Shown: positions 1 to 13,581 of the stretch, piece after piece
How the letters are laid out: each line of letters opens with the position of its first letter
Position numbering within the stretch: the first letter of the stretch is position 1
NCBI GenBank assembly: GCA_027858795.1
Contig: JAQICF010000179.1
Coordinates: forward strand, 1-13,695
DNA: 13,695 nucleotides
Direction of reading: 5' to 3'
Source of the DNA: Candidatus Delongbacteria bacterium
Lineage (GTDB): Bacteria > Delongbacteria > UBA4055
Position numbers and translations under genes: made by a program
The notes under the pieces: generated by a model
What the model was told of the DNA's origin: nothing
Database searches by the model: none
What the model saw: only the letters and a program-made list of their open reading frames with translations

Positions 1-1178
1 GCATAAAATAGATTTTCTCTATTAACTAGCTTTAGAAATTTTGTTAATAAAGAAATGATTTCATCAACTAAGTTAAATTCACAAAGAGCATCAAAGTATT
101 TATAAATGTTTTGTGTAGAATTTATCAAGTCTGAAAAGATGTCAAACATAAATAAAAACTTATTATTTTTTGATTCTTTAACTATAAAGCCATCATATTT
201 TGTTTTGAATTCATTAAATATATCGAGCGAAAATTTATGAATTTGCTTTTCATTGCTTTGAGATAATATATCAAGAAAATCTGAATTGGAGTCTTGAATT
301 ATAGTATACATGTTTAATTTCTTTATTCCATTCAATATTTCTGAAAGGAATTTTGAAGCTTCATTGTTTTGAATATATTTTATTTCATAACCTGATTTTT
401 CATATGTTTCTTTCAATTCAAAAAAAAGCTTTGTTTCGTCACATTTAGAAGGGAACGTTCGATATTGCCAATATAAGGGATAAGTATATGGTTTCCTTTT
501 GATAAGATGTTCCATTATACCCTTATCTCTACCAGCATATCCAATTACAATTAAACCATGTCTGTCAATGATGTATTGGAAATCTTCAGAGATTAAAGGG
601 TCTAGTTTATCAAGCTCATTAATTGTATTCTTGATTTTACCAATTTTAAAATCACCATGTAACTTATAAATTCTACATTTTTTCACTTTATCCCAAGAAA
701 CAGTTTTTTCTAAAATCTCGTCAGAAAAAATCACATCATAATCAATTGACAATTCATCAAGTGATTTTTCAATTAAATCATCGAAATTAGTTGTAAATAT
801 GAACTTAATTAAGTTTTGTGAAACCATTTCAGCTAAGTGTCTGTGAGCTTGACCTGGCTTTGCATTTTCAAAATATTTTTTTAAGTATTCTCTGCGGGAT
901 ATTTCTCCACTTTGAGAATACTCTAAAATTTCGGAATATCCCATTTTATTAAAATCATCATCATTTTTATACCAATCTTCAATTGCTTCATAGCTAACAA
1001 CAGGATTTGTGTCTTTTTCATGTTTCATGATATAAATTGGTTTGAGTGTATCTATCAAAATATCCCAACCAGTAGGTAAGTCTGCATCTTTTGAAAATCC
1101 AGCACCTACAAAAACTGCATAATCCCGATTTTGTGTAGCTAAATTAGCAACTAAAGGTAAGAATTCATTTAAACTCAT
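1..1178 (-). CDS. SIR2-domain protein, probable anti-phage NADase (3' end beyond window)
   Basis: Read directly from the minus strand: 392 codons stay open from ATG at 1178 to the window edge, so the C-terminus is missing. The N-terminal half has the SIR2-like NAD-binding signatures in order: VFVGAGFSKDADLPTGW (about residues 22-38, GAG-x-S loop), FTTNFDDLIE (128-137, the TTNxD motif), KLHGD (172-176, candidate catalytic His) and LIVIGYAGRD (209-218). The visible part after about residue 230 is helical-looking and I recognise no domain in it. Stand-alone SIR2 domains followed by a variable C-terminal region are typical of bacterial defence proteins that deplete NAD+ on phage infection; that role is inferred from family knowledge. 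A GGAG lies 8 nt before the ATG. Its 5' end faces core 1, like the other minus-strand genes here. A metabolic sirtuin is less likely because the order TTNFD ... LHGD is that of the SIR2_2 type. Confidence 0.85.
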   Translation of the reverse strand, partial: MSLNEFLPLVANLATQNRDYAVFVGAGFSKDADLPTGWDILIDTLKPIYIMKHEKDTNPVVSYEAIEDWYKNDDDFNKMGYSEILEYSQSGEISRREYLKKYFENAKPGQAHRHLAEMVSQNLIKFIFTTNFDDLIEKSLDELSIDYDVIFSDEILEKTVSWDKVKKCRIYKLHGDFKIGKIKNTINELDKLDPLISEDFQYIIDRHGLIVIGYAGRDKGIMEHLIKRKPYTYPLYWQYRTFPSKCDETKLFFELKETYEKSGYEIKYIQNNEASKFLSEILNGIKKLNMYTIIQDSNSDFLDILSQSNEKQIHKFSLDIFNEFKTKYDGFIVKESKNNKFLFMFDIFSDLINSTQNIYKYFDALCEFNLVDEIISLLTKFLKLVNRENLFY

Positions 1179-1213: not shown

Positions 1214-1322
1214 TCATAGCTAACAGTTTAACATTTTTTATACCTAATAAGCTTCAAATGTACTATTGGCAAGTTTAATCTTATAATCTATATAGTTTTA
1301 GAAACCCCCAAGAATGTCAGAC

Positions 1323-1386
1323 AACGGTCATGGCAAAAAGCGTTAAGCCAAGACAAGTAGGGTATTCAAGTCATTTTGCCAATGTT
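1323..1386. repeat. Core repeat 1 (short type, 64 bp), attC-like
   Basis: Starts AACGG, ends AATGTT. The terminal stem is TGGCAAAA with TTTTGCCA; the spacers between stem and ends are unequal (GGTCA left, AT right), as in all nine copies. It differs from core 2 by one base. Its left flank CAGACAAC belongs to the SIR2 unit; its right flank GTTAGCTG belongs to unit A. Repeat identity is certain; the attC interpretation is inference. Confidence 0.9.
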
Positions 1387-2343
1387 AGCTGTTGATGCGA
1401 TTTTCACTCAGATGCAAATTTAACCTATTTCTTCATATCTGCCTTTTCTTTCATGTAGATATTTCTCATTTTAAAAACAATGTAACGGTAATCTTCAAAC
1501 TGTTTAGGAGTTTTACTTGGAGTATAGCCTTTTAATATCTCCTCACTAACAGCCAAAGCAATGGGATAATAATATTCAAAAAGGAGATTAATTGATTTAT
1601 TTTTTATATAGTTCGAAGCATAGCTCATTCCACGAAAGTGTGAAGGAATCCCATCAAGAATCCAATCACTTTCATCTGTTCCTTTTGTGTAGTATAATAG
1701 AACATCTTTAAGATTGTTATTTTTTTTGTTTATATCAATTGTCAGCAAAGTCTGAATAGCTTCTAATTTTACTAAAGGCTCATTATTATCTATCAAATCA
1801 TGCAAAGAAGTTATTATTAGTTCTTTGAAATTGTTAAAAATTATAACATCTTCATTTTTCACAGGAGATTCTCCAACTTGTTTTAGCATTTCAATACTAT
1901 TTCTTGAAGCCTCTATATAACTCTTCCAATACCTTAAAATATATAAGGCTTCAATAAGTGCCTTTGGAGAAGAATTTTCATAAGAAATAACTTTATTAGC
2001 ATATTCAATTGCTTCGCCATCACCAGTAATATTACCATCAAGTAATTGCAAATTAAAAGCTGATTTCTCATCAATTATTCCTTTATTTTCAATAAGACTA
2101 TCAATTTCATTAAAGAGTCTTGCTTTTGCACCTAAATACCAATCCGATGCTTCTTTTGAGATTGTATTTTCAGTGTGTTTTTGGGAGAAAACTAACAATT
2201 GTGTTAATAAAATAAATACTAAGAATGACTTAAAAATAAAAAAATAGTGACTGACTTTTAATATTTCACTTTTTGCATTATTCATTGTTATCACCTATAC
2301 AGGTTAAATTTGCTCTCTATTTTAAATCGCATTTTCAGCTAAC
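1384..2343 (-). mobile_element. Cassette-like unit A (unknown exported protein)
   Basis: The stretch between cores 1 and 2. Its ends are complementary over an ungapped 43-base alignment: GTTAGCTG (1384-1391) with CAGCTAAC (2336-2343), ATGCGATTT (1395-1403) with AAATCGCAT (2324-2332), and GCAAATTTAACCT (1414-1426) with AGGTTAAATTTGC (2301-2313). The spacers between these blocks are equal in length on both sides (3 and 10 bases). The inner block reaches the stop codon of the gene. The pairing is private to this unit, which supports a circular or hairpin intermediate made from its own two ends. Calling it mobile is inference. Confidence 0.6.
1425..2285 (-). CDS. Exported protein of unknown function
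   Basis: A 286-residue protein I do not recognise. From the ATG at 2285 it has a polar start, then a hydrophobic segment FFIFKSFLVFILLTQLLVFS ending in a plausible signal peptidase site, so it is probably periplasmic or secreted (the segment could also be an N-terminal anchor). The rest is rich in Leu, Ile, Asn and Lys and looks all-helical; stretches such as EPLVKLEAIQTLLTI suggest short helical repeats, but no family is assignable. I chose the ATG at 2285 over the in-frame GTG at 2294 because AGGTG lies 6 bases before the ATG and overlaps the GTG. It is the only gene of unit A, and its stop codon overlaps the inner block of the unit's left arm. Confidence 0.8.
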   Translation of the reverse strand: MNNAKSEILKVSHYFFIFKSFLVFILLTQLLVFSQKHTENTISKEASDWYLGAKARLFNEIDSLIENKGIIDEKSAFNLQLLDGNITGDGEAIEYANKVISYENSSPKALIEALYILRYWKSYIEASRNSIEMLKQVGESPVKNEDVIIFNNFKELIITSLHDLIDNNEPLVKLEAIQTLLTIDINKKNNNLKDVLLYYTKGTDESDWILDGIPSHFRGMSYASNYIKNKSINLLFEYYYPIALAVSEEILKGYTPSKTPKQFEDYRYIVFKMRNIYMKEKADMKK

Positions 2344-2404
2344 GGTCATGGCAAAAAGCGTTAAGCCAAGACAAATAGGGTATTCAAGTCATTTTGCCAA
2401 TGTT
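2341..2404. repeat. Core repeat 2 (short type, 64 bp), attC-like
   Basis: AACGG...AATGTT with stem TGGCAAAA/TTTTGCCA. One substitution in 64 bases from core 1, so the two copies around unit A are the most alike in the window: a recent duplication or strong homogenisation. Left flank AGCTAAC is from unit A, right flank GTTATCTT from unit B. Confidence 0.9.
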
Positions 2405-3578
2405 ATCTTTTGTAGTATGCCATTCTTTATTTAAACTCATAAATATCTATATAAGAACCACGTGCATATTGGACTATTTTGTTTCCATTCAATTTAAATC
2501 CGTAAATATTGCTATAGTATAATTTAAGTTTTATTCTATTAATGAAAATACCATCTTTAAATATATCAAAATACATACATCCTTCTTCTTCTTTAGTATC
2601 TCTGTTATTAGAATTCACCCATAAACGATCATAGCTATCATAAAATATCTGGTTAATAGATTCTTTAAATTTAGAAGTACCTGATTGGATTTTTACCGTT
2701 TTGCCATCATAAACCCCATAATGGTCTTTAACTTCATCATTATTCTTAACCTTAATATGATTTTTCCTAATCTTATATTTTAATTTACCAGTTTTTGAAT
2801 CATAGCAATTAATTTTATAATCATTAAAGCTATTATCAACTACAAAGAATACTTTTTCATCACCTGCATATATGAAAACATTTACGTTAGCAGTCCAATC
2901 ACTTCTTAATTTTTTATATTCTTATTCAAATAAACTTTTTTTAATTTCAAAAGTTTTACTGTCGAACATAACAATTCTGTCAATATTTCTTTCTTTTTCA
3001 TAACTATACCTTGTGCTGTAACCAAGTAGATATTTATCATATGCACAAATTATATCTTTTGGATAATTTAAAGAGTTCTCTATATGGATATCATTAATAA
3101 ATTTCCCATCATTATCAAATTTAATGATTTTTCTACTGACACTATTAGATACATAAATTGTATCATTTAGCATAAAAAAGTTAAAAGGAACTTGAAATTC
3201 TCCAGGTCCATACCCATTACGTGACCACTTATTTATGAAACGACCATTTTTATTGAATTTCCACATTCGATTATGATCGAGTATTGTAATATCTCCTTTT
3301 GCATCAAAATCATAGTCGTAAACAGCAATACCATTTACTCCTAGAGTATCAAGATAGTCAGGTGAGATCTCCCCTATCTTTTTCAACTCGATCTTAAAAT
3401 TCGGATCAGCAGGTTTTTTATTATAGAAAGTTTTAACACCTTTACTGTCGGTTTTCACCTTGTAAGTTTTATCACCTGCGTGTAAATTGGATAAGATGGA
3501 TATGGTTAGAACTATTATTGAAATAAATTTCATACTTTTCCAAGAGTTTTAAAATAATGGCAAACTATGTAAGATAAC
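2402..3578 (-). mobile_element. Cassette-like unit B (broken beta-propeller gene)
   Basis: Between cores 2 and 3. Left arm GTTATCTT (2402-2409) pairs with AAGATAAC (3571-3578). The match continues inward as TAGT, TGCCATT and AAACTC (to 2438) opposite GAGTTTT...AATGGCA...ACTA (from 3544), with one two-base gap. The left arm overlaps the last codons of the gene. The arm sequence differs from all other units. Confidence 0.6.
2427..3533 (-). pseudogene. Six-bladed beta-propeller exported protein, interrupted by an in-frame TAA
   Basis: Read as one frame this encodes 368 residues with a single internal stop, TAA at 2922-2924 (codon 204). Both parts are in the same frame and the 303 bases from that stop to the GTG at 2618 are fully open, so this is a nonsense change and not a frameshift. 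The N-terminus (MKFISIIVLTISILSNLHAG) is a signal peptide. Blade-like repeats follow: YDYDFDAKGDITILD...MWKFNKNGRFI, NDTIYVSNS...IIKFDNDGKFI, then past the stop VFFVVDNS...INCYDSKTGKL and DRLWVNSNNRD...YFDIFKDGIFI. This is the 6-bladed/NHL-like propeller pattern common in Bacteroidota-type genomes, usually a secreted or periplasmic protein of about 370 residues, so the length before the stop is only just over half. GGAAAAGT precedes the ATG. A CAA-to-TAA change is the simplest cause; a sequencing error or read-through is possible. Confidence 0.8.
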
Positions 3579-3649
3579 GGTCATGGCAAAAACCAGTGGT
3601 GATAAACCAAGTAAACTCTCCAAGTAACCATTGATATTTTGCCAATGTT
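3576..3649. repeat. Core repeat 3 (long type, 74 bp), attC-like
   Basis: AACGG...AATGTT. In addition to the outer stem TGGCAAAA/TTTTGCCA it has an inner stem CAGTGGT/ACCATTG (seven pairs, one G-T), giving a two-part hairpin with a loop of about 20 bases. Left flank AAGATAAC is from unit B, right flank GTTGTGGGC from unit C. Confidence 0.9.
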
Positions 3650-3835
3650 GTGGGCTGTTTATGATTGTTCACAGATTCCTTCTTTTTGACGCAACCGGTG
3701 TTTTTTAAATATACTAAAATTTACTAACTTCTACAAAACATTTTCATTGCATTTTTAAATTATGAGTCTACTCGTTATATTTTGAAATATCTTATATTGC
3801 TTTACTTGTAACTGAAAAATCATTATATTATGATC

Positions 3836-4126
3836 ATGAAGTTTGAATGGGATATAAAGAAAGAACGAAAGAATATTCAAAAACACGGAGTGACATTTGA
3901 AGATGCATCCTATGTGTTCACAGATCCTTTTGCACTGAGTATTTATGATTTATCACATTCTGAAAATGAAGACAGATGGATATTGTTAGGGAAATCAACT
4001 AATGAAATGTACATTGTTGTTATTCATACATTCAAAGATGAAGACGGAATTGAATCAGTAAGAATAATAAGTGCAAGAAAAGCGACAAAAAATGAAAGAT
4101 TAACTTATGATAAAAGGCGGATATGA
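3836..4126 (+). CDS. brnT: BrnT-family toxin (type II toxin-antitoxin)
   Basis: A 96-residue protein matching the BrnT (DUF497) pattern: MKFEWDIKKERKNIQKHGV at the start, FEDASYVFTDP, then a beta-rich middle (DRWILLGKS, MYIVVIHTF) and the hallmark end VRIISARKATKNERLTYD. BrnT toxins have a small RNase-like fold and block translation; the partner antitoxin neutralises the toxin and represses the operon. Length is typical. I prefer the ATG at 3836 because the family starts MxFEWD; an ATG two codons upstream (3830) is also possible, and neither has a clear ribosome binding site. The stop overlaps the next start (ATGA), so the two genes are co-translated. It lies opposite in strand to all other genes here, so it must have its own promoter. 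Toxin first, antitoxin second is the usual BrnTA order. Confidence 0.9.
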   Translation: MKFEWDIKKERKNIQKHGVTFEDASYVFTDPFALSIYDLSHSENEDRWILLGKSTNEMYIVVIHTFKDEDGIESVRIISARKATKNERLTYDKRRI

Positions 4127-4335
4127 TGAAAAAAGAATATGATTTTTCCAAAGCCGAACAGGGGAAATTTCACAGACCTGTAAATGAATTGGACATTCCT
4201 GTATACCTTGACAAGGAAATCATTGAATATTTTATGAATGTAAAAAAAAGTAAGAATAGAAATTTTTCCCTGAGTGAAATTATAAATACACTTTTAAGAA
4301 AAGATATTGAAATATCCAAAGAATTGCAGGAATAA
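4123..4335 (+). CDS. brnA: BrnA-like antitoxin (ribbon-helix-helix)
   Basis: A 70-residue protein overlapping the toxin stop by 4 bases. It opens MMKKEYDFSKAEQGKFHRP, the conserved start of BrnA/CopG-type antitoxins paired with BrnT, followed by the short strand DIPVYLD and two predicted helices (EIIEYFMNVKKSK and FSLSEIINTLLRKDIEI) that form the ribbon-helix-helix DNA-binding unit. It should bind the toxin and repress the operon promoter. A second ATG three bases downstream (4126) could be the true start and makes the common MKKEYDFSKA opening. The gene ends 128 bases before core 4; no rho-independent terminator is visible in between. Confidence 0.9.
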   Translation: MMKKEYDFSKAEQGKFHRPVNELDIPVYLDKEIIEYFMNVKKSKNRNFSLSEIINTLLRKDIEISKELQE

Positions 4336-4463
4336 AATTTCGAAAAACTTTTATCTCTAGTATCCTTTAAATGGCTGAATTGCTTTAAATCCGCTAAAAC
4401 ATTTTACATATAGATTACCCTACCTTTTACTAAAACACCGGTTAACAATCATTAATTGCCCAT

Positions 4464-4526
4464 AACGGTTATGGCAAAAAGTGTAAATCAAGTCAACTCG
4501 GGAGTCCAAGTCATTTTGCCAATGTT
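4464..4526. repeat. Core repeat 4 (short type, 63 bp), attC-like
   Basis: AACGG...AATGTT with stem TGGCAAAA/TTTTGCCA; left spacer GGTTA instead of GGTCA. The interior shares CAAGTCA... and ...CAAGTCATTTTGCC with the other short copies but is otherwise diverged from cores 1 and 2. Flanks: CATAAC from unit C, GTTGTAGGC from unit D. Confidence 0.9.
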
Positions 4527-5444
4527 GTAGGCTGAAGTCAATTTGCCCTCTAATCTGCCAAGTCGTATTCTATGAGTGTCCTTTCACCTTTAAATGTAAA
4601 AGTCCCCATTGGTGTTCCAAATTCATCAACTACTGTACCTGGTGCATCTTCCCAAGTTCTTTTAACCATTCCAATTTCTGAGATATGATCATAGTAAATA
4701 TAGCCATCAAATAGTGAATCGTAGTATACATATTCCACCTTCCAGCAGTCGAATTCTCCTGCTTGCGTTTCCAGCTTTTCTAAATCGGATACTTTTTTAG
4801 TCATTCTCCAAGGTTCTGATTGCCTTAAAACCCATTCCTTTCCCAAATGGAAAGGATATTTATAAACTGTAAATGGATCATAAAGAATACTATCCTCTTT
4901 TACGAGTGTATGATTTAAAAAACCTTGATTGATCCATCTTACAATATCTTTTGGGTTTTGAAATCTTTTTCCAGCAAAGATATAATTATTTTTAGATATT
5001 TTTGGACTAACTCCAGTTCCTGCATTATAATACCCATAGCAAATCAGACTATCACCTGAAATGTTATAGAAGAAATTGCTAAAACCTTGCTGAATTCCTT
5101 CTCCATCGGTTGAATAGAAATTATATACTGGAATACTGTCTTGAAAGATTTTTTCATAAGAAATAATGTCAAGTGTTTCTGGATAGTAATAGGTTCTATC
5201 TGTATAGCCGTTTGATTCAGCGATCGAATCGTAATCAAAGACTACGATATAATCGTACTTCCAGCTGTTACCGACTTTTAAAGGAAATTGAAAATCCATG
5301 TCATTTGAAGGATCATCGTCTTTATCACAGCTCAGTAGAAATGCAATGCAAATGATTGACAGCACAATAAATCTTACTTTTACATTTAATCGGTTTTTCA
5401 TCTTTTTCTCCTTATTTTATCCTAAATTGACTTTTGCCTACAAC
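4524..5444 (-). mobile_element. Cassette-like unit D (lipoprotein)
   Basis: Between cores 4 and 5. GTTGTAGGC (4524-4532) pairs perfectly with GCCTACAAC (5436-5444); after two mismatches AAGTCAATTT (4535-4544) pairs with AAATTGACTT (5424-5433), giving 19 of 21 bases. The left arm ends 5 bases before the stop codon of the lipoprotein gene, so the gene fills the unit almost completely. Confidence 0.6.
4550..5401 (-). CDS. Exported lipoprotein of unknown function
   Basis: A 283-residue protein. Its N-terminus has a basic start, a hydrophobic stretch (FIVLSIICIAFLLS) and a lipobox LLSC with Cys at residue 25, followed by an acidic tether DKDDD, so it is a lipid-anchored envelope protein. The mature part starts FPLKVGNSWKYDY, a phrase I associate with uncharacterised lipoproteins of FCB bacteria, and is rich in Tyr, Asp and aromatic beta-strand patterns; near the end FDCWKVEYVYYDS...ISEIGMVKRTW looks like strands of a beta-sandwich or barrel. 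No enzyme motif is visible. AAGGAG lies 6 bases before the ATG, so the start is well supported. It is the only gene of unit D; its start is only 40 bases from core 5, leaving little room for a promoter other than across the core junction. Confidence 0.85.
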   Translation of the reverse strand: MKNRLNVKVRFIVLSIICIAFLLSCDKDDDPSNDMDFQFPLKVGNSWKYDYIVVFDYDSIAESNGYTDRTYYYPETLDIISYEKIFQDSIPVYNFYSTDGEGIQQGFSNFFYNISGDSLICYGYYNAGTGVSPKISKNNYIFAGKRFQNPKDIVRWINQGFLNHTLVKEDSILYDPFTVYKYPFHLGKEWVLRQSEPWRMTKKVSDLEKLETQAGEFDCWKVEYVYYDSLFDGYIYYDHISEIGMVKRTWEDAPGTVVDEFGTPMGTFTFKGERTLIEYDLAD

Positions 5445-5515
5445 GGATATGGCAAAAAGCAGTGGTGATAAGCTAATAAAACTCTCCAAGTAACCATTGA
5501 TATTTTGCCAATGTT
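5442..5515. repeat. Core repeat 5 (long type, 74 bp), attC-like
   Basis: AACGG...AATGTT, with outer stem TGGCAAAA/TTTTGCCA and inner stem CAGTGGT/ACCATTG. The left spacer is GGATA. The loop differs from core 3 by a few bases only. Flanks: GCCTACAAC from unit D, GTTGTCTG from unit E. Confidence 0.9.
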
Positions 5516-5600
5516 GTCTGTCTGTAGTAGTTTTATATCTCGGTAATGTCTATGTCAATCTAAATGGTTTGTTTTAATCAATAATCTTAACATTGGCACA

Positions 5601-7499
5601 TTATTTTAAAAGTAACATTCTTCTAGTTTCTATCGTTTCGTCTCTTGATAGCTTATAAAAGTAAACTCCAGAATTTAATCCTGAAGCATCAAAGTTGATA
5701 GAATGGTTACCTTTTTCTTTTTTACCTTCAAATAATACCTGAACCAACTCGCCTTTCGAATTAAAAACTGATAAATTAACATCTTGTTTCTGATTTAATG
5801 AAAAACTGATTTCAGTAGTAGGATTAAACGGATTAGGGTAGTTTTGATATAGCAATGAAGTAACGGGTAAAGTGTTTTGTTCTTCTATTCCTGTAAGTCC
5901 TTGCCACTTGAAATAAGGATAAGCATCGTTGTTATTAAAACTACCTTCCCAAACATCTGTAAAATCCCAGTTAGGATATGCAGTTGAAGGATTGAACCAG
6001 TATGTCAATTCATCAGTGGTTCGACCCGTACCACCTTCAGAAGTTGATAATCCTGATGATTCGGTATCCCAATAGCAGTTTGTAATATTTCCATCATCAT
6101 TATATCCAGAAAATCCACCAGGTGTGTCAGATGTGGATTCTGCAGTTCCAGTTGAATAACAATTAGAAATGTCAGAATAATTACAACTTCCTGTGAATCC
6201 TCCTACTCTACCATTCCCACTTGCAGTTCCTCTAGCATAACAATTGATAACATTACTGTGCAAAGTTTGGTTAAAATAATCACCTGCAAGATTTCCAATA
6301 AAACCTCCAATATCCAAATCACCAGTTGCAGAACCTAAAGAATAGCATTCTTCTATAATCGCAGGATAAAGAATATTACCAACAAATCCACCTGCAGACG
6401 AATTTGTAGTTGTAACATCACCTATTGCGTAACAATTTGAGATTTTCTCGCCTATATATTGCCCAACAAAACCCCCACAGCCCCAACCAGTTGAAGTAAC
6501 TGAACCTTCTGAATAGCAATTGTTAATCACAGTTGTACTATCTCCGATGCATCTACCGATAAAACCACCTGAAAAAGCGTAACTGTTGATACTACCCGTT
6601 GAATAACAATTGAGAATTTCACTTGAAGCATTATTTCCAATAAATCCTCCAACGCGTTCGCTACCTTGTACTGCACCTGTTGCAAATGAATCATAGATTT
6701 TAAATTTATTATGACCAATTAGCCCACCAACATAGTCATATGTACCTGTCATATTCCCTGTTGATGAGCAATTTGATACGATACCAGTATCGTTACCAGT
6801 AGTACAGCAACCGATTATACCTCCAACGAACTCTTGTGCATTAACGACACCTTCATTATGACAATTATATAATTCTGTACCACTGTATGCTTCACCAATA
6901 ATCCCACCAGCTCTATAAATATCACCGGTAATATCTACATCTGTTGTACAATTTTCAAAAATAGTTATAATTGATCTCGATACAAGACCACCACAATTAA
7001 TACCAGATTCAGCTTCTGATGTTATTGTACCACTGGTTGAAATATTACTAATTGAAGAACTGTCAGCTAATCCACATAATACACCAGTGTTTGCTGATCT
7101 GATAAATACATTACTTAAATTTAAACTATCAATTGTTGCGTTTTCTATAGCTCTAAAGAGACCTTGAAAACTTACAAAACGATTAATTTTTAAATTGTTT
7201 ATCGAATTGCTTTGCCCATTGAAAGTTCCTGTAAAAGGATCTGCTTCTGTGCCGATTGGAATCCATAACTCACCACCATTGTACCCAGGATTACCTTCCG
7301 AAAGATATAGAGCAAGATCAATCTCAGGAACTCCAATTATAAAATTTGCATCTAGATAATCCCTTACATTGTCTAGATCTTCAGCTGTATTGACTAGGTA
7401 AGGATCATTCAATGTTCCACTACCACCTGAAAATTGCGAAAAACCAACAGATAGAAAAGTAACAAATACTAACAAAAACACTTTCTTTGATAAATTCAT
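5601..7499 (-). CDS. GLUG-repeat secreted protein with type IX-style sorting tail
   Basis: 632 residues from the ATG at 7499, chosen over the GTG at 7511 because GGAG lies 7 bases before the ATG. A signal peptide (MNLSKKVFLLVFVTFLSVGFSQ) is followed by the usual GLUG-protein opening GSGTLNDPYLVNTAEDLDNV and IGTEADPFTGTFNGQ. About 12 tandem GLUG-type repeats then run from roughly residue 140 to 485, each like GGFIGNNASSEILNCYSTGS, forming a repetitive right-handed beta structure. The last 85 residues are a Por/type IX secretion sorting domain: LYQNYPNPFNPTTEIS ... NHSINFDASGLNSGVYFYKL ... TRRMLLLK. The protein should be exported, moved across the outer membrane by the type IX system and left on the surface or released. 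GLUG proteins are often adhesin-like; a ligand cannot be inferred. It is a relative of the gene in unit G, with more repeats. Confidence 0.92.
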   Translation of the reverse strand: MNLSKKVFLLVFVTFLSVGFSQFSGGSGTLNDPYLVNTAEDLDNVRDYLDANFIIGVPEIDLALYLSEGNPGYNGGELWIPIGTEADPFTGTFNGQSNSINNLKINRFVSFQGLFRAIENATIDSLNLSNVFIRSANTGVLCGLADSSSISNISTSGTITSEAESGINCGGLVSRSIITIFENCTTDVDITGDIYRAGGIIGEAYSGTELYNCHNEGVVNAQEFVGGIIGCCTTGNDTGIVSNCSSTGNMTGTYDYVGGLIGHNKFKIYDSFATGAVQGSERVGGFIGNNASSEILNCYSTGSINSYAFSGGFIGRCIGDSTTVINNCYSEGSVTSTGWGCGGFVGQYIGEKISNCYAIGDVTTTNSSAGGFVGNILYPAIIEECYSLGSATGDLDIGGFIGNLAGDYFNQTLHSNVINCYARGTASGNGRVGGFTGSCNYSDISNCYSTGTAESTSDTPGGFSGYNDDGNITNCYWDTESSGLSTSEGGTGRTTDELTYWFNPSTAYPNWDFTDVWEGSFNNNDAYPYFKWQGLTGIEEQNTLPVTSLLYQNYPNPFNPTTEISFSLNQKQDVNLSVFNSKGELVQVLFEGKKEKGNHSINFDASGLNSGVYFYKLSRDETIETRRMLLLK

Positions 7500-7533
7500 A
7501 AAAATCTCCACAAGTTTAAATTAGTTATATTGT

Positions 7534-7561
7534 ATAATAATGTGCCAATGTCATAAAACAA
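7534..7561 (-). promoter_or_regulatory. Candidate promoter in the shared frame, unit E
   Basis: On the minus strand TTGTTT (7556-7561) and TATTAT (7534-7539) are separated by 16 bases, about 35 bases before the ATG at 7499. The same -35 and spacer are present at the same place in units F and G. The spacer contains the ATTGGCACAT block that pairs with the other arm. No experimental support; -10 match is partial. Confidence 0.35.
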
Positions 7562-7601
7562 ACCTTTTTTTGAGCGAGAATAATAAACTACTATTGCAGA
7601 C

Positions 7602-7664
7602 AACGGTCATGGCAAAAAGCGATAGTCAAGTCAAGTCGGGGATTCTAGTCATTTTGCCAATGTT
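7602..7664. repeat. Core repeat 6 (short type, 63 bp), attC-like
   Basis: AACGG...AATGTT with stem TGGCAAAA/TTTTGCCA; the interior has CAAGTCAAGTC, related to core 4. It is the only short copy among the last five, and lies between two shared-frame units. Flanks: GCAGACAAC from unit E, GTTAGGGG from unit F. Confidence 0.9.
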
Positions 7665-7750
7665 AGGGGTCTGTAGTAGTTTTTATCGCTCTCATCGGTA
7701 CTTACCGCACATTGGTTTGTTTTAATCTGTAATCTTCAAATTGGCACATT

Positions 7751-10468
7751 TTACTTTATCATTACCATTTTTTTTGTGTCCTGAATTCTACCATCTACTT
7801 TAAGCGAATAATAATAAATACCACTGTTGAGAGCTGAAGCATCAAAGAAAATTGAGTGTCTACCTTTATTTTTCATTCCATTAAAGATTGTATTTACCAA
7901 CTGACCTTTAATGTTATAAACGATCAATTTGATTTTTGTGTTATCTTCTGGAATAGAAAAGTTTATAGTCGTATATGGATTGAATGGATTAGGGTAATTT
8001 TGTTCGAGTATATAATCCTTAACTATTACGGGATCTTCATCAACATCATCTTCACAAAGTCCTTTTATGCAAAAATTCGCAGTACGAGGACTATGAATAT
8101 AAGTATTATAATAAAGGTCTAGCCACTCACCGTTTTCTTTATAATAGCTCTCACCAGGGGAAGCCGCTGATTGATAATATGCCGGAAGTCCATAATAAAC
8201 TTCATACCAAGTCATACTCTGGCTTTGATCAATCGGATGCCCTCCGTCTGATAAGTTAACACAAATATAAAAATCATCTGAATATGGAATATTTACTGCT
8301 GAGGGTAAGTCTATTGTATGAAATCCTTTATAATCTATATGACCTGAAGTTGTTGTCAGATTGTTTTGAAGTTCAAATCCGTTAAAATCATCATATACTT
8401 TTACAACATAATCTACATTATCCTTAGCTGTGAAAAAACTAACTGCAACCAGATTTTCTTCTTTTTTAGCGACATATGAATTAAATGCTTCAGATATATT
8501 TGTCAAAATATTATTGTCTCTCCAGCCATGGAAATCATCTCTCCAACCATGATAATCATAATAATAAATATTGTCATATGTCAATGGTACAACATTTTGA
8601 AAAGATGCTGCGTATTGCTCATTGTGTGTAAAAAGCTTATCGTAATAAGAAATCCAGAAAAAACCATTATCAGCCCAAGATTCACCGAAACTGTTTTTAC
8701 ATAACCATGCTCCTGTACCTTCTGGTGCCTGAGTATTTAGGTTGTCATCCCAACCAACTATTATTACATCGTGATTTAGAGAATTTGAATCTGTTGGGGG
8801 TTGATAGGAGATGTATGACTGAAAAAAAGATGGATTATTGTAATAAGAAGAAACCATTCCACCATATTCCATTAGTTTACATTTTATCAATTCAATTCCA
8901 TGCAAGCTGTGATCCATGTTATAATATTCCATATTTTTAACATAATAATGGTGATAATTTTCTGAAAACCTATCTGAAATTGAATAGTATTCGGGTGTAT
9001 CAATTTCTCTGATAAAACCTTCACCCCTTGACATATAAGCAGTAGCTACTAAATAATCGCAACCTTTATTATAAGCGATTTCATCTCCTGTAGTGAGATT
9101 ACAATCGGCATTGAAGAAATCATTAAAACCATTCCATCTGTCTAAATGTGACTCAGAGAGATCAGGTTCACCACTTTCACCTGATAAAGTCCAATTTCCG
9201 CTTATTAACAAGTTCGTTTCTAGTGCAGCTACAGTGGCAAATGCCCAACATGAACCACCGTATTGTTGTTTTACTGAAGATACACAATTGTAACCTAATG
9301 AAGTTCTTAAGTCAAAACTATCAGGTAATTCATTTATCCAGCTCATTCCATATATGCTGCTATTTAAAACGTTCCCATGCTCATCTTGTGCTTCAAATTT
9401 CACTTTGCCATTTGTAACTTCATATTCTGCTGGGATTGTACCAAAATAAGTATATGGGTCATATTTTGATTGAGTTAGGTCAAACTCATATTGTGTAACA
9501 AAGTTATCCTTACTAAAATAACCAGTACATGACACAACTGAACTATGATCAGCTAACAGAACATTTAAGTTGGCATTATTATTTACTTGGGCAGTATTAC
9601 CTTTTATTTCTTCGATAACAGGAGGATAATTATCATCAATAAAATCAATATGATAATTCTCTGAACTCAATGTGTTACCCAATAGATCTGTTACTGTAAA
9701 GTAAATATAACCTGAAACAGCATTTACTTCGGCAGGTATCGCTGCCTGCCAATCTTCAGTATCCTTGGATTTAATAAAATTGATGTTAATTACATTAGTG
9801 CCACCATCGAAACTGTAATGACCTTCTGCAGATGAAATACCACTATAATCGTATAACCCAAGTATTAAAGGCATAATATTACCTGAAAAGCTTCCAATTA
9901 TTGGAAAAATAGAAGTATTCCCGATAAGTTTAGTAATTTCCGGTATATTATTATCAACATATACATCAACATCATCAACAAACCACTGATCACTGTAGTC
10001 ACCAGCATAATGCCATCCAATCTGGATATCCTGACCTGAGAATCCTTGAATAAGACAAGGTACTTTATTAAATTCTTCTTTGGGAATAGTTGAGGATATT
10101 TGATTCCATGTTGTACCTCCATCATTAGAAATACAGACTTCATGTGAGCCTATATACTCAACAAACCTGCTTCGCTCATAAAAGGTTAAAATAATCAAAC
10201 TGTCCGATGGCAAAGTGATGATCGGTGAAATCAGCCAGTCATCCTGAGATCCTTGGTCATCTAAATGCCCTATAAGGTTATCTCCTGAATTAGACGGGTA
10301 AAGAATGTTATCTTCAATATAAATCCAACCTGCGCCTGTTGTTTGTAAACTCCAACCTTCTGTAAATGGATCTGTTTCGAAACTAATACTATATATTGAA
10401 ACTTGTGAAAAAGAGTTAATAAAAATTACTAACAGAATTGATACATATTTAAACTTAAAAACATTCAT
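7751..10468 (-). CDS. Secreted papain-family (C1A) cysteine protease with sorting tail
   Basis: 905 residues. Order: signal peptide (1-22); a jelly-roll 'choice-of-anchor'/MAM-like domain (about 27-172, FETDPFTEGWS ... DDWLISPII ... WFVDDVDVY); two Ig-like or bacterial-repeat domains (about 176-380); the peptidase (about 381-630); a beta-sandwich region resembling the lectin-like domain often found after bacterial C1 peptidases (about 650-810); sorting tail (818-905, QNYPNPFNP ... ALNSGIYYYSL ... KKMVMIK). Catalytic residues are all visible: oxyanion Gln401 and Cys407 in QQYGGSCWAF, His566 in NHDVIIVGW, Asn592 in CKNSFGESW. It should cleave proteins outside the cell, attached by or released through the type IX system. 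No separate inhibitory prodomain is evident; the N-terminal beta domains may take that place. The ATG at 10468 has no Shine-Dalgarno sequence. It is unrelated to the GLUG genes on either side apart from the tail. Confidence 0.92.
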   Translation of the reverse strand: MNVFKFKYVSILLVIFINSFSQVSIYSISFETDPFTEGWSLQTTGAGWIYIEDNILYPSNSGDNLIGHLDDQGSQDDWLISPIITLPSDSLIILTFYERSRFVEYIGSHEVCISNDGGTTWNQISSTIPKEEFNKVPCLIQGFSGQDIQIGWHYAGDYSDQWFVDDVDVYVDNNIPEITKLIGNTSIFPIIGSFSGNIMPLILGLYDYSGISSAEGHYSFDGGTNVININFIKSKDTEDWQAAIPAEVNAVSGYIYFTVTDLLGNTLSSENYHIDFIDDNYPPVIEEIKGNTAQVNNNANLNVLLADHSSVVSCTGYFSKDNFVTQYEFDLTQSKYDPYTYFGTIPAEYEVTNGKVKFEAQDEHGNVLNSSIYGMSWINELPDSFDLRTSLGYNCVSSVKQQYGGSCWAFATVAALETNLLISGNWTLSGESGEPDLSESHLDRWNGFNDFFNADCNLTTGDEIAYNKGCDYLVATAYMSRGEGFIREIDTPEYYSISDRFSENYHHYYVKNMEYYNMDHSLHGIELIKCKLMEYGGMVSSYYNNPSFFQSYISYQPPTDSNSLNHDVIIVGWDDNLNTQAPEGTGAWLCKNSFGESWADNGFFWISYYDKLFTHNEQYAASFQNVVPLTYDNIYYYDYHGWRDDFHGWRDNNILTNISEAFNSYVAKKEENLVAVSFFTAKDNVDYVVKVYDDFNGFELQNNLTTTSGHIDYKGFHTIDLPSAVNIPYSDDFYICVNLSDGGHPIDQSQSMTWYEVYYGLPAYYQSAASPGESYYKENGEWLDLYYNTYIHSPRTANFCIKGLCEDDVDEDPVIVKDYILEQNYPNPFNPYTTINFSIPEDNTKIKLIVYNIKGQLVNTIFNGMKNKGRHSIFFDASALNSGIYYYSLKVDGRIQDTKKMVMIK

Positions 10469-10508
10469 AACTTAAAATAAAAACATAATTTAGAAAATCC
10501 TAACATAT

Positions 10509-10536
10509 TATTAAATGTGCCAATGTCATAAAACAA
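10509..10536 (-). promoter_or_regulatory. Candidate promoter in the shared frame, unit F
   Basis: Minus strand TTGTTT (10531-10536), 16 bases, then TTAATA (10509-10514), a weaker -10 than in units E and G. The spacing and the -35 are the same in all three units. About 40 bases upstream of the protease ATG. Confidence 0.25.
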
Positions 10537-10576
10537 ACCTTTTTTTGAGCGAGAACCAAAAACTACTATTGCACCT

Positions 10577-10650
10577 AACGGTCATGGCAAAAAGCAGTGG
10601 TGTCATAACGAGTTAAATGTCCAAGTAACCATTGATATTTTGCCAATGTT
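10577..10650. repeat. Core repeat 7 (long type, 74 bp), attC-like
   Basis: AACGG...AATGTT, outer stem TGGCAAAA/TTTTGCCA, inner stem CAGTGGT/ACCATTG. Its loop (TGTCATAACGAGTTAAAT) is the most diverged of the long copies while both stems are unchanged, which suggests that the stems and not the loop are under selection. Flanks: GCACCTAAC from unit F, GTTGTCTG from unit G. Confidence 0.9.
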
Positions 10651-10736
10651 GTCTGTCTGTAGTAGTTTTTTTGTCCCGGTAATGTCTATGACTAACTAAA
10701 TGGTTTGTTTTAATCAAAATTCTTAACATTGGCACA

Positions 10737-12008
10737 TTATCTCAAGTATAACATCTTTTTAGTTAGAGTTTTGTCATCAGAAGTTAAATTATAGAAATAA
10801 ACTCCTGAGTTAAGGTTTGAAGCATCAAAGTTAATAGAGTGATTTCCTTTGTCTTTTATACCTTTGAAAAGAGTCTGAATCAACTCACCTTTTGAGTTGA
10901 AAATTGATAAGTTTATATTACACTGGTCGTTTAAATTAAATCGAATTGTTGTAGTTGGATTGAACGGATTAGGATAGTTTTGAGCAAGTTCTGCAGACAA
11001 AGGGAGAGCAGTTTTCTGGTTTTCAATTCCGACTATGTTACCGATATAAAAAATTGGAGGACCGGAATACCAGAGATTTACATAGTGCCTTTTCCAGATG
11101 TTCTCAAAATCCCATCCAACATATGTACTGTCATTATCACCATATTCTGTACCCATTTCATCAGAAGTTCGACCTTCAGCAAATCCATCAGTTAAGTCAT
11201 CACGAATCATCCAATATGAATGAAGAACTGATGTTGAATCACCTGTTCCAATAAAACCACCGATACTTCCAATACCTTCCACATCTCCTGATGAATAGCA
11301 ATTAAGGATATCTGTGTTAGTAGAGTTACCGATAAATCCACCAACATAACTATTACCTACTACAGGTGCCCACGAAAAACAATTATCAATTGTTGATGAG
11401 CAGAATCCAATCAGTCCTCCAATATTATCAAGTCCGGAAATTCGACTGTCAATATAATTGTATTCTCCTAAACAGCAAATAGATATTGAGTCATTCTCTG
11501 ATTTACCAATTAGCCCTCCGATGTTATTTCCTGTTGCTGAAATGCTGTAATCCGTAACAACGCATTTTGATATCTTTGAATTTGTACTTTTACCTACTAA
11601 AGCACCACAATATCCTTGACCGATAATATGTGCGCCAGTTAGTTGTATGTTCATTAATGTTGCATTTTCAATAACACCAAATAATCCTAAGTTATTTGAA
11701 AGAGAATCAATAATATTCATACCCCAAATATCATATCCATTACTTCCGACTCCAAAGCTACCCATGAAAGGCAACGAGTCGGTGCCGATAGGAGTCCAAA
11801 GTGAATCTCCATAGCTCCAAAGTGGAATAGGGTAAACTTGTTTAAAATACTTATCTGAATGATCAGGACCACAAAAATACCTGATACTATCAAGATTACT
11901 TGCAGTTCTTATCAACCACGGGTCATCTTCTGTACCTGAACCACCTGCGAATTGTGAGAAAACGATTAATTGTAAAGAAATAATCATTAATGAAATCAAT
12001 CTTTTCAT
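10737..12008 (-). CDS. GLUG-repeat secreted protein with sorting tail (short paralogue)
   Basis: 423 residues from the ATG at 12008, chosen over the ATG at 12020 because GAGG lies 6 bases before 12008 and nothing suitable precedes 12020. Signal peptide MKRLISLMIISLQLIVFSQ, then FAGGSGTEDDPWLIRTASNLDSI, the same opening as the unit E protein. About five GLUG-type repeats follow (GALVGKSTNSKISKC, GGLIGKSENDSIS, GGLIGFCSSTIDNCFS, GGFIGNSTNTDILNCYS, GGFIGTGDSTSVLHSYW), then a shared linker GRTSDEM ... WDFENIW, and a sorting tail AQNYPNPFNPTTTIRF ... NHSINFDASNLNSGVYFY ... TKKMLYLR. The tail is close to that of the unit E protein also at the DNA level. Probably a surface adhesin-like protein exported by the type IX system. 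The repeat number, 5 against 12, is the main difference between the paralogues. Confidence 0.9.
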   Translation of the reverse strand: MKRLISLMIISLQLIVFSQFAGGSGTEDDPWLIRTASNLDSIRYFCGPDHSDKYFKQVYPIPLWSYGDSLWTPIGTDSLPFMGSFGVGSNGYDIWGMNIIDSLSNNLGLFGVIENATLMNIQLTGAHIIGQGYCGALVGKSTNSKISKCVVTDYSISATGNNIGGLIGKSENDSISICCLGEYNYIDSRISGLDNIGGLIGFCSSTIDNCFSWAPVVGNSYVGGFIGNSTNTDILNCYSSGDVEGIGSIGGFIGTGDSTSVLHSYWMIRDDLTDGFAEGRTSDEMGTEYGDNDSTYVGWDFENIWKRHYVNLWYSGPPIFYIGNIVGIENQKTALPLSAELAQNYPNPFNPTTTIRFNLNDQCNINLSIFNSKGELIQTLFKGIKDKGNHSINFDASNLNSGVYFYNLTSDDKTLTKKMLYLR

Positions 12009-12045
12009 AGCAAACCTCATAAGTTGTTAATAAATTCTTTAAAGT

Positions 12046-12073
12046 ATTATAATGTGCCAATGTCATAAAACAA
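12046..12073 (-). promoter_or_regulatory. Candidate promoter in the shared frame, unit G
   Basis: Minus strand TTGTTT (12068-12073), 16 bases, perfect TATAAT (12046-12051), about 38 bases before the ATG at 12008. The best of the three promoter candidates in the shared frame. Confidence 0.45.
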
Positions 12074-12111
12074 ACCATTTTTTGAGCGAAAATTAAACTA
12101 CTATTGCAGAC

Positions 12112-12185
12112 AACGGTCATGGCAAAAACCAGTGGTGATAAGCTTAGAAAACCCTCCAAGTAACCATTGATGTTTTGCCAATGTT
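12112..12185. repeat. Core repeat 8 (long type, 74 bp), attC-like
   Basis: AACGG...AATGTT, outer stem TGGCAAAA/TTTTGCCA, inner stem CAGTGGT/ACCATTG. Like core 3 it has AACCAGTGGT where the other long copies have AAGCAGTGGT or AAGCGGTGGG. Flanks: GCAGACAAC from unit G, GTTGTGAGC from unit H. Confidence 0.9.
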
Positions 12186-13445
12186 GTGAGCTGTTCAAAC
12201 CAAACTCTAAGATTAACATTCTTTAATTAATTTCACAAATTTGGATTTGCCAAACTGTAATACTCTTTCAGACTGAAAATCAATATTTAAATTAGTATCG
12301 GTAACTATATTATTATCAAGTTTTACACCGTTACCGATAATCATTCTTCTAGCTTCTCCATTTGAATTGGCAAATCCAGCCAGTTTAAGAGCGTCGATGA
12401 TCCTGATTGCACCATCCTGAACATGCTCACTTGGTACAATTACTTCTAGTATGTTTTCGGGGATAGCACCTTTGGCTACTTCAGAATACCTTTTTACTGA
12501 TTGTTCAATAACTTCCTCAGAGTGATACATTCGAATTATTTCTTTACCGTATTCTGCGTGAGCAGTTCTGATATCATCATTGATCCACTCTTGGTACCGC
12601 TCAGTTGGAATATCTGTAGTTAACCTAAAGTAGTCTTCCATGAGTACGTCTGGAATCTTCATAGCTTTTTCGAACATTTTTTCAGGTGATTCATCTAAAC
12701 CGATATAATTATCTAAAGATTTACTCATTTTCTCAACACCGTCAAGTCCTACGAGCAGAGGAAATGTAATAACTTCTTGTTGTTTCTGATCATAATCTTT
12801 TTGAAGTTCTCTGCCAACAAGAAGATTGAAAGTTTGATCAGTACCACCTATTTCAACATCTGCACCTAGTGCTACTGAATCATAACCTTGCATCAGAGGG
12901 TAAATCAATTCATGCATTCCTATGGGTTGATTACCTTCATATCTATTTTTAAAATCATCTCTTTGAAGTATTTGAGAGACAGTGTATTTACTCGTAAGTT
13001 TCAATACTTCTTCAAAAGTGAGTTTGGATAACCATTTTGAATTATATTCTATCCTTGTTTTATCTTTATCTAATATTTTTGTTGCTTGCTCAAAATATGT
13101 TTCACCAGCTTTTCTGGTTTCTTCAAAGGTCAAAGCTGGTCTTGTTTTACTTTTACCTGAAGGATCACCAATCATTGCGGTATAATCCCCAACAATAAAT
13201 ATTACTTCATGCCCCATTTTCTGAAATATTCTTAATGCTCTAAGAACTACAGAATGCCCAAGGTGCAAATCAGGTCTACTAGGATCAGCTCCTAATTTGA
13301 TTTTAAGTTTCTTTCCGCTGTTCAGTCTTTCAATGAGACCTTCCTTTGAAAATATTTGAACTGCTTTTCTTAAGATTAGGTCTAAATCTTTTGACATTAC
13401 TTATTACTCCTTAAATTGTTTAGTTTGGTTTGAATTGCTCACAAC
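12183..13445 (-). mobile_element. Cassette-like unit H (tyrosyl-tRNA synthetase)
   Basis: Between cores 8 and 9. GTTGTGAGC (12183-12191) pairs perfectly with GCTCACAAC (13437-13445); after two mismatches TTCAAACCAAACT (12194-12206) pairs perfectly with AGTTTGGTTTGAA (13422-13434), 22 of 24 bases, the longest near-perfect arm in the window. The left arm ends 6 bases before the tyrS stop codon. Confidence 0.6.
12213..13397 (-). CDS. tyrS: Tyrosyl-tRNA synthetase
   Basis: 394 residues, complete. A class I aminoacyl-tRNA synthetase that charges tRNA-Tyr with tyrosine in the cytoplasm. The HIGH motif is HLGH (45-48, in PDLHLGHSVVLR), followed by FIVGDYTAMIGDPSGKSKTRP (67-87), the tyrosine-pocket region GYDSVALGADVEIGGTDQTFN (171-191) and KMSKS (223-227, in GVEKMSKSLDNYIGL). 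A C-terminal S4 RNA-binding domain spans about 330-392 (ALKLAGFANSNGEARRMIIGNGVKLDN). Length, KMSKS form and spacing fit the longer TyrS2/TyrZ-like bacterial branch, not the E. coli-type one. AAGGAG stands 9 bases before the ATG. Only 45 bases separate the start from core 9, so there is no room for a T-box leader and no clear promoter. A housekeeping gene is unexpected in a cassette-like unit; whether it is the only copy cannot be seen here. No key residue is missing. Confidence 0.97.
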   Translation of the reverse strand: MSKDLDLILRKAVQIFSKEGLIERLNSGKKLKIKLGADPSRPDLHLGHSVVLRALRIFQKMGHEVIFIVGDYTAMIGDPSGKSKTRPALTFEETRKAGETYFEQATKILDKDKTRIEYNSKWLSKLTFEEVLKLTSKYTVSQILQRDDFKNRYEGNQPIGMHELIYPLMQGYDSVALGADVEIGGTDQTFNLLVGRELQKDYDQKQQEVITFPLLVGLDGVEKMSKSLDNYIGLDESPEKMFEKAMKIPDVLMEDYFRLTTDIPTERYQEWINDDIRTAHAEYGKEIIRMYHSEEVIEQSVKRYSEVAKGAIPENILEVIVPSEHVQDGAIRIIDALKLAGFANSNGEARRMIIGNGVKLDNNIVTDTNLNIDFQSERVLQFGKSKFVKLIKEC

Positions 13446-13517
13446 GGTCATGGCAAAAAGCGGTGGGTATAAACTAAGAAAACTCTCCAAGTAACCCATT
13501 GCTGTTTTGCCAATGTT
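13443..13517. repeat. Core repeat 9 (long type, 75 bp), attC-like
   Basis: AACGG...AATGTT with outer stem TGGCAAAA/TTTTGCCA. The inner stem is one pair longer: GGTGGGT with ACCCATT where other long copies have AGTGGT with ACCATT, so an extra G on one side is matched by an extra C on the other. Flanks: GCTCACAAC from unit H, GTTGTGGGT from the next unit. Confidence 0.9.
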
Positions 13518-13581
13518 GTGGGTCTGTAGTGATTATCTTTCTATGGGTTATTGAGCTTATCTTTTATCTGCCCTCGAAGTT

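Follow-up and report, generated by a model that had tools for sequence, protein, structure and literature searches.

The 13,695-nucleotide (nt) contig JAQICF010000179.1 of a Candidatus Delongbacteria bacterium (assembly GCA_027858795.1), analyzed over its whole length and hereafter called the window, is probably part of a cassette array in which each cassette carries two complementary boxes at its ends. These ends are predicted to form a long hairpin available only in the circular cassette, and the cassettes are likely recombined at an attI site by an integron-like tyrosine recombinase that lacks the insert found in IntI; from sequence comparison and modeled folds, we put the probability of this reading at about 0.7. 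The window holds a cluster of attC-like sites with no adjacent IntI, and related genomes have another recombinase at an array start.

A pattern scan of the window revealed nine cores of the form GGCAAAA-N25..55-TTTTGCC, all on one strand, where 0.01 would be expected by chance. They delimit eight complete units, designated cassettes A to H, which range from 820 to 2918 bases.

Paired ends of the cassettes

A sequence-only reading of this stretch had noted reverse complementarity between the right flank of one core and the left flank of the next, and this holds for all eight neighboring pairs in the window. The match covers the full 8 nt in A, B, D, E, G, and H (6/8 units) and has one mismatch in C and F; the match of nine bases reported for D and H includes the first base of an unpaired loop. 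The pairing indeed connects neighboring cores and not the two sides of a single core, since the mean matching prefix was 7.8 nt in true pairs versus 4.2 nt across one core (n=82). The shuffled-pairing check that accompanied this claim, performed on 46 units found by pattern, gave mean prefixes of 7.8 nt for true and 4.0 nt for shuffled pairs, and none of the 5000 permutations reached the true value.

A second box had been overlooked. In all eight window units, a break of 3–4 nt is followed by a further 9-nt match (8 or 9 of 9). Read in the gene direction, a unit begins with GTTRNNNN, usually followed by three bases ending in A and then the 9-base second box, and its far end contains both boxes in complement; the unpaired stretch between the boxes is a triplet or quartet.

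The core pattern, scanned against contigs of public genomes, yielded 52 stretches, 35 of them titled Candidatus Delongbacteria. The covariance model R1, built from 43 sites, produced 132 matches in 76 sources, and 129 of these matches defined 73 units in the window and the fetched contigs, one unit starting at an attI-like site. The sources were mostly Delongbacteria, plus contigs of six drafts labeled otherwise. Two of the 88 pattern matches and, for the two-box count, three of the 132 model matches were left out (partial sites, N gaps, weak matches), and unit spacings below 100 nt in the pattern set and below 120 nt in the model set were skipped. Pattern matches outside Delongbacteria (11 loci scored) reached at best 20.6 bits and were taken as chance. 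An Rfam search gave no credible match.

The five variable bases of the first box were identical in 61 of the 73 units, versus 4.3% of mispairings, and the second box matched at 7 or more of 9 positions in 69 of the 73, versus 5.3% of mispairings; none of 10,000 permutations was as high for either box. In the 48 units with three-base loops at both ends, identity was 0.92–1.0 at positions 1–8, dropped to 0.58, 0.23, and 0.00 at positions 9–11, returned to 0.83–1.0 at positions 12–20, and then fell to 0.75 at position 21, about 0.5 at positions 22–23, and background beyond. The last loop base was A on the GTT side and G, in the reverse-complement reading, on the other side in 65/69 units; A faces C in the top (sense) strand, and T faces G in the bottom strand.

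The ends had also been described as private to each unit. They do differ in most window units, but E and G have the same box, and only 32 different boxes were found among the 73 units, many of them common to several units. Forty pairs of units had the same outer box and different first boxes, and in 19 of them the first boxes were identical at both ends of both units, indicating that both ends of a unit can change together. This diversity of boxes bears on the very improbable alternative of units that are small transposons, each bounded by terminal inverted repeats of its own, or of cores that recombine through homology alone. As such an explanation would have it, inverted repeats of about 20 nt form the ends and the cores are repeated, but the number of different end boxes speaks against a sequence-specific transposase, the units abut with shared cores, and core homology does not create matched ends.

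Complementary ends that complete attC were said to be established for integrons, and the accessible part of PMC2727003 agrees, describing self-pairing of cassette ends over 9–11 consecutive nt; the same first box was seen in our canonical control. The latter included five IntI genomes from the phylum of G009, a Spirochaetales draft, with arrays readable by the attC pattern in three of them. An earlier automatic attC finder found almost nothing in canonical arrays and was replaced by a chaining test and the attC pattern. Of 31 canonical IntI units, 18 had a first box matching at 5/5 positions and 26 at 4/5 or better, while the second box was present in 0/31 (mean match 3.9/9 versus 3.7 in mispairings; Fisher p about 2e-22 against 69/73). 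A complementary first box thus belongs to normal integron biology, unlike the second box. In G007 and G019, the chaining test yielded two more candidate IntI cassettes, whose match covers 8 nt only. A strict detector requiring both boxes and the A/G loop was applied to 49 loci of the six Delongbacteria genomes that encode the short recombinase and found 38 units in 22 of them; it found 6 in the window and none in 34 IntI loci (20+10+4; 510 kb).

The cores have an attC layout: the alignment of 43 sites contains R'' and R' boxes with AAC and GTT, an L''/L' inverted repeat, and a variable top. The first site of the window, for example, reads R'' NNNNYAAC, 2 nt, L'' TGGCAAAA, variable top, L' TTTTGCCA, 5 nt, and R' GTTRNNNN. 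The 8-bp L stem was paired in 99.7% of the cells of the alignment, and two pairs were changed on both sides. Within this 8-bp stem, the extrahelical base (a G of the bottom strand, in L'') was absent from the 43 sites, one of which had a single gap; the extra base is visible by eye in the control IntI attCs. The core spacers are 2 and 5 nt, and the first box adjoins the core stem at a fixed spacing. Cores broken by NN gaps were observed in loci L230, L237, and L238, and hairpin cores seem to disturb assembly.

Folding of the bottom strand with DNA parameters gave a mean of -21.9 kcal/mol for a core with its cassette's own ends and -10.5 kcal/mol for the same core in the array junction. The circle form was lower than the array form in all 36 cassettes for which both could be built, on average by about 11 kcal/mol, and random partner ends folded at -10.2 kcal/mol (72 cassettes). 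The predicted bottom strand was lower than the top strand in 28 of 36 circles.

In the mechanism we propose, the two-box ends of a cassette and its own core would pair into one long hairpin when the cassette is circular, and this hairpin would be recombined at attI by the integron-like tyrosine recombinase without the IntI insert, with cleavage probably at G^TT. Because the excised circle would offer a long hairpin that the array cannot form, as the predicted folds suggest, the circle may be the preferred substrate and insertion may be favored over excision. The outer box and the asymmetric loop could provide anchoring and strand choice, replacing the extrahelical bases and the I2 helix of IntI.

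The paired ends could also act in RNA, where a panhandle of the cassette in a read-through transcript would insulate or stabilize the message. Both boxes are located at the ends of a probably transcribed unit, the longest open reading frames (ORFs) are mostly sense (60 sense and 12 antisense of 72 scored), and the end pairing covaries. Nevertheless, this role is improbable: the near-fixed loop base makes A face C in the sense strand, whereas G faces T in the bottom strand, the spacing between first box and core stem is fixed, and an RNA panhandle leaves the recombinase, attI, and shuffling unexplained.

Recombinases without the IntI insert and attI-like loci

The IntI insert, a segment of roughly 45 residues, was present in all 18 aligned IntI sequences and absent from all 11 short recombinases and from 10 other relatives, the latter having been picked for lacking it. 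Four short recombinases scored 207.7–214.4 with the TIGR02249 model, versus a cut-off of 265. In the tree, IntI formed one clade (100/99), and 10 of the 11 short recombinases formed another (100/99) inside a larger insert-less clade (96/86), while nine of ten Xer-labeled rows formed a clade of their own. The sequences L054, L309 (IntI), L180, L183, and L184 were missed by the motif search and are not included in the alignment and tree. At least 7,398 relatives of the recombinase, counted by match alone, were found at E <= 1e-60, and many of the best 120 were named XerD or site-specific integrase.

Cores were found in 12 of the 13 genomes of the phylum to which G002 belongs, and six of these 12 (G001-G004, G016, G017) encode a recombinase at least 65% identical to the enzyme of locus L130. 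Ten recombinase loci were viewed, and six of them, from four Delongbacteria genomes (L105, L122, L123, L130, L137, L139), contain an attI-like junction: within about 50–100 nt of the gene, palindromes or repeats are followed by a C-GTTR junction with a cassette end, which is the loop-A end (GTTRNNNN-NAA-T) in all six. Of the other four loci, three stop no more than about 75 nt from the gene, and L143 shows no such junction. The complete order was seen in L130, where the recombinase, 50 nt, the attI-like site, GTTAGCTG-AAA-TACCACACAC, a gene, the matching end, and attC follow one another on one strand.

Polarity deduced from core classes was ambiguous and was replaced by shared-flank comparison and the attI side. 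Because the attI side is known from the relatives, the array in the window can be placed on the minus strand, with each cassette preceding its own attC. G001 and G002 have the same chromosomal neighbor before the recombinase, read by eye as glutamate dehydrogenase, and different sequences after attI.

By eye, the motif ATAAGTAGTTATATATATTGATATTT is common upstream of the recombinase start in L122, L123, and L130, with variants in L131 and L138, and is probably a promoter or operator that these genes share. Palindromes such as TACGACATATGTCGTA and ACGCCATATGGCGT, also recognized by eye, recur between recombinase and cassette in L123, L130, and L137, as well as in L321 and L332 of another phylum. 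Contigs break exactly at the attI-like GTT (end of L163) or at a core GTT (start of L109), as expected of repeated or variable junctions.

Two-box units were also found beside insert-less relatives in two other phyla. In the phylum of G009, 5 of 20 stretches contained units with the A/G loop, seven in all; in the phylum of G011, where 63 of 198 genomes have a close relative, another seven units came from 3 of 20 stretches. Shuffled sequence gave 0.0 in both phyla against this total of 14 units in 8/40 stretches. In one set, one of eight two-box units was without the A/G loop; it looks like chance and was dropped. All 14 units lie on the recombinase strand, their downstream position being partly due to the choice of stretches, and in four of the eight loci (L332, L347, L386, L392) no more than about 140 nt separate the recombinase match from the start of the first unit. 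For four of the eight enzymes, alignments showed that the insert is missing; for the other four, this was deduced from match lengths. The sequence of these cores is wholly unlike the Delongbacteria core; the 2/5 spacer occurs in several of them, but not in all.

True IntI above the cut-off was encoded in two drafts of the Delongbacteria phylum, G010 and G019. We considered IntI as the driver in Delongbacteria and rejected it, as no such sites were found beside the true IntI genes of G007-G010 and G019. At L252 of G019, a true IntI occurs with a different attC, and R1-type sites are present elsewhere in the same draft; judging from the sequences, this genome perhaps harbors two cassette systems.

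An ordinary IntI integron, or a cluster of attC sites lacking integron integrases (CALIN), in a little-studied phylum, with the second box being a local habit of its sites, is an unlikely explanation of the window. It would account for the complementary first boxes, which are a classical feature, and for the R1-type cores in the two Delongbacteria drafts with true IntI over the family cut-off; the integrase of Treponema integrons likewise points at attI, according to the accessible text of PMC3607928. However, the G019 IntI adjoins another kind of attC and a cassette that matches over 8 nt only, no two-box unit occurs in the 34 IntI loci or the 31 IntI-linked units, the enzyme found in six core-bearing genomes has no insert, and the L stem has no extrahelical base. 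Moreover, the two-box signature accompanies insert-less enzymes into two more phyla.

Movement of the cassettes and content of the window

Movement was analyzed in 114 of the 132 sites (18 partial, N-gapped, or weak sites were left out), forming 6441 pairs, with a flank regarded as shared at >=80% over no more than 100 nt; the pairs occur both within and between drafts and are not statistically independent, as one end family contributes several of them. Twenty-six pairs share the cassette 3' flank, and none of them shares the other flank. Another 42 pairs share the downstream flank; 40 of these are without upstream similarity, and two are not comparable, one consisting of two identical contig ends. 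Units and not cores had been proposed to be what moves, and the search for the same unit between different neighbors, suggested as a check, was successful: the same cassette ends were found in different company within and between drafts (26 pairs). The separation of unit from core was too sharp, since a unit seems usually to carry one core, the one on the 3' side of its gene. The end of the tyrS cassette of the window, together with a similar site, recurs in L140 (G005) beside a different neighbor, the similarity starting at the AAC of site 8.

Among the 26 pairs sharing the 3' flank, 5 had a core identity below 0.75, compared with 17 of 41 pairs sharing the downstream flank (Fisher p = 0.05; hand count, identical contigs left out), which weakly supports the view that cores mostly go with the 3' flank and may sometimes be exchanged. 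In two comparisons, L156 with L228 and L243 with L127, the cassette ends are 94% alike and are followed by quite different cores (0.66 and 0.71), and these sequences suggest core exchange at the AAC side.

All nine attC-like sites of the window are located on the minus strand and were matched by model R1. Site 1 (1318..1391; 79.3 bits) was also found by pattern and alignment. Sites 2 (2336..2409; 77.7 bits), 3 (3571..3654; 76.2 bits), 4 (4459..4531; 72.5 bits), 5 (5437..5520; 75.4 bits), 6 (7597..7669; 76.5 bits), 7 (10572..10655; 76.3 bits), and 9 (13438..13522; 77.7 bits) were supported by both model and pattern, and site 8 (12107..12190; 73.4 bits) is the attC of the tyrS cassette. The gene at 3..1178 on the minus strand encodes a SIR2_2 domain and belongs to the next cassette of the array, whose 3' end is outside the window.

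The main gene is on the minus strand in seven of the eight units and on the plus strand in one. Cassette A (1384..2343, minus strand), with ends GTTAGCTG-aaa-ATGCGATTT and GTTAGCTG-ttg-ATGCGATTT, contains an ORF at 1425-2294 (minus strand) without a Pfam match. Cassette B (2402..3578, minus strand), with ends GTTATCTT-aca-TAGTTTGCC and GTTATCTT-ttg-TAGTATGCC, contains a beta-propeller gene (PF17170) at 2426-3533 (minus strand); its product is a 6-bladed beta-propeller interrupted by one in-frame stop, and this cargo looks decayed, while the ends are intact. Cassette C (3647..4466, plus strand) has the ends GTTATGGG-caa-TTAATGATT and GTTGTGGG-ctg-TTTATGATT and encodes a BrnT family toxin and a small partner ORF at 3830-4335 (plus strand), opposite to the array direction. 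Toxin-antitoxin cassettes in superintegrons likewise run against the array. Cassette D (4524..5444, minus strand; ends GTTGTAGG-caa-AAGTCAATT and GTTGTAGG-ctg-AAGTCAATT) contains an ORF at 4550-5401 (minus strand).

The three following cassettes, all on the minus strand, encode proteins with C-terminal secretion tails. Cassettes E (5513..7604) and G (10648..12114) both have the ends GTTGTCTG-caa-TAGTAGTTT and GTTGTCTG-tctg-TAGTAGTTT; the former encodes a GLUG-repeat protein, and the latter a GLUG-motif protein. Cassette F (7662..10579), with ends GTTAGGTG-caa-TAGTAGTTT and GTTAGGGG-tctg-TAGTAGTTT, encodes a papain-like protease with a lectin-like domain. These cassettes (5513-12114) have common end stretches of tens of bases, common gene ends encoding the secretion tails, and different middles, as if the middles had been exchanged between cassettes. 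Cassette H (12183..13445, minus strand), with ends GTTGTGAG-caa-TTCAAACCA and GTTGTGAG-ctg-TTCAAACCA, contains a tyrosyl-tRNA synthetase gene of 394 codons (12213-13397, minus strand).

Relation to known integrons and Xer systems

Several observations weigh against a cassette array run by an insert-less recombinase. No recombinase was found in the 13.7-kb window itself, and the short recombinase is missing from 6 of the 12 core-bearing genomes of the Delongbacteria phylum, two of which have IntI (G010, G019) and four neither enzyme, these drafts being in many contigs. At five of the six attI-like Delongbacteria loci, the examined stretch revealed no far end of the first cassette. With the strict detector, no unit was found in 15/20 stretches of the G009 phylum and 17/20 of the G011 phylum, some of these stretches being cut off shortly after the gene. 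An array could not be read in most of the 34 IntI loci, so that the 31 units are the real control. The assignment of the core to the 3' side has p = 0.05, and 5/26 same-end pairs differ in their cores. Finally, six drafts with other labels (G006, G008, G009, G011, G012, G013) carry true sites of this type; these drafts may be misbinned or unclassified. R1 sites in the phylum common to G011 and G008 were present on small contigs in 2/198 and 1/148 genomes (overlapping draws, stricter filters), which would be consistent with misbinning.

Judging from these comparisons, the system appears to work like an integron and possibly represents a second class of integrons. We did not file it as an IntI integron because two tested defining features, the IntI insert and the extrahelical base in the L stem, were absent. 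With somewhat less confidence than for the window itself, we favor a class of cassette platforms driven by a large family of insert-less tyrosine recombinases that falls outside the IntI clade and spans at least three phyla. In this class, a two-box folded site (8 bp, A.C / G.T loop, 9 bp) would replace the extrahelical bases and I2, and the circle-only hairpin would act as a ratchet toward insertion. Such a class could be a surviving pre-I2 stage or an independent invention.

Acquisition of I2 is argued in the accessible text of PMC7790495 to have opened folded single-strand recombination, an argument made there without an ancestor sequence. If the relatives run cassette arrays without this helix, living enzymes would allow the origin of integrons to be tested, and environmental bacteria would turn out to possess a hidden gene-capture system. 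Survey methods, as given in the accessible parts of PMC9668308 and PMC9176274, require the extra domain (I2 helix) to call IntI, and platforms of this type would therefore be missed. Among the top listings and abstract openings of open papers, with subscription papers and preprints outside the search, we found neither two-box ends described nor cassette arrays operated by insert-less recombinases. The second box and the insert-less enzyme with arrays appear to be new, while first-box complementarity was already known.

The enzymes resemble the integron-like subgroup of simple tyrosine recombinases, for whose insert-less members the accessible part of PMC8138268 gives no arrays or sites. They share with Xer a short tyrosine recombinase without the insert, but the Xer rows mostly form their own clade. 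The accessible text of PMC7790495 tells of a phage that Xer integrates in the form of a single-strand hairpin and discusses integrative mobile elements exploiting Xer (IMEX); unlike Xer and IMEX, the system described here has cassette-specific ends and not a fixed dif sequence. A CALIN is similar in its attC-like array without IntI in view, but here a non-IntI recombinase is found at the array start in related genomes. The chromosomal IntI integrons of the Treponema type are alike in the cassette array, the attC-like hairpins, and the complementary first box, and, with intI transcribed toward attI according to the accessible part of PMC3607928, also in the attI-like site beside the recombinase and the array downstream on the same strand. 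In contrast to IntI integrons, the system described here combines an enzyme without the IntI insert, a second 9-nt box behind a loop, an 8-bp L stem without an extrahelical base, and core spacers of 2/5 nt.

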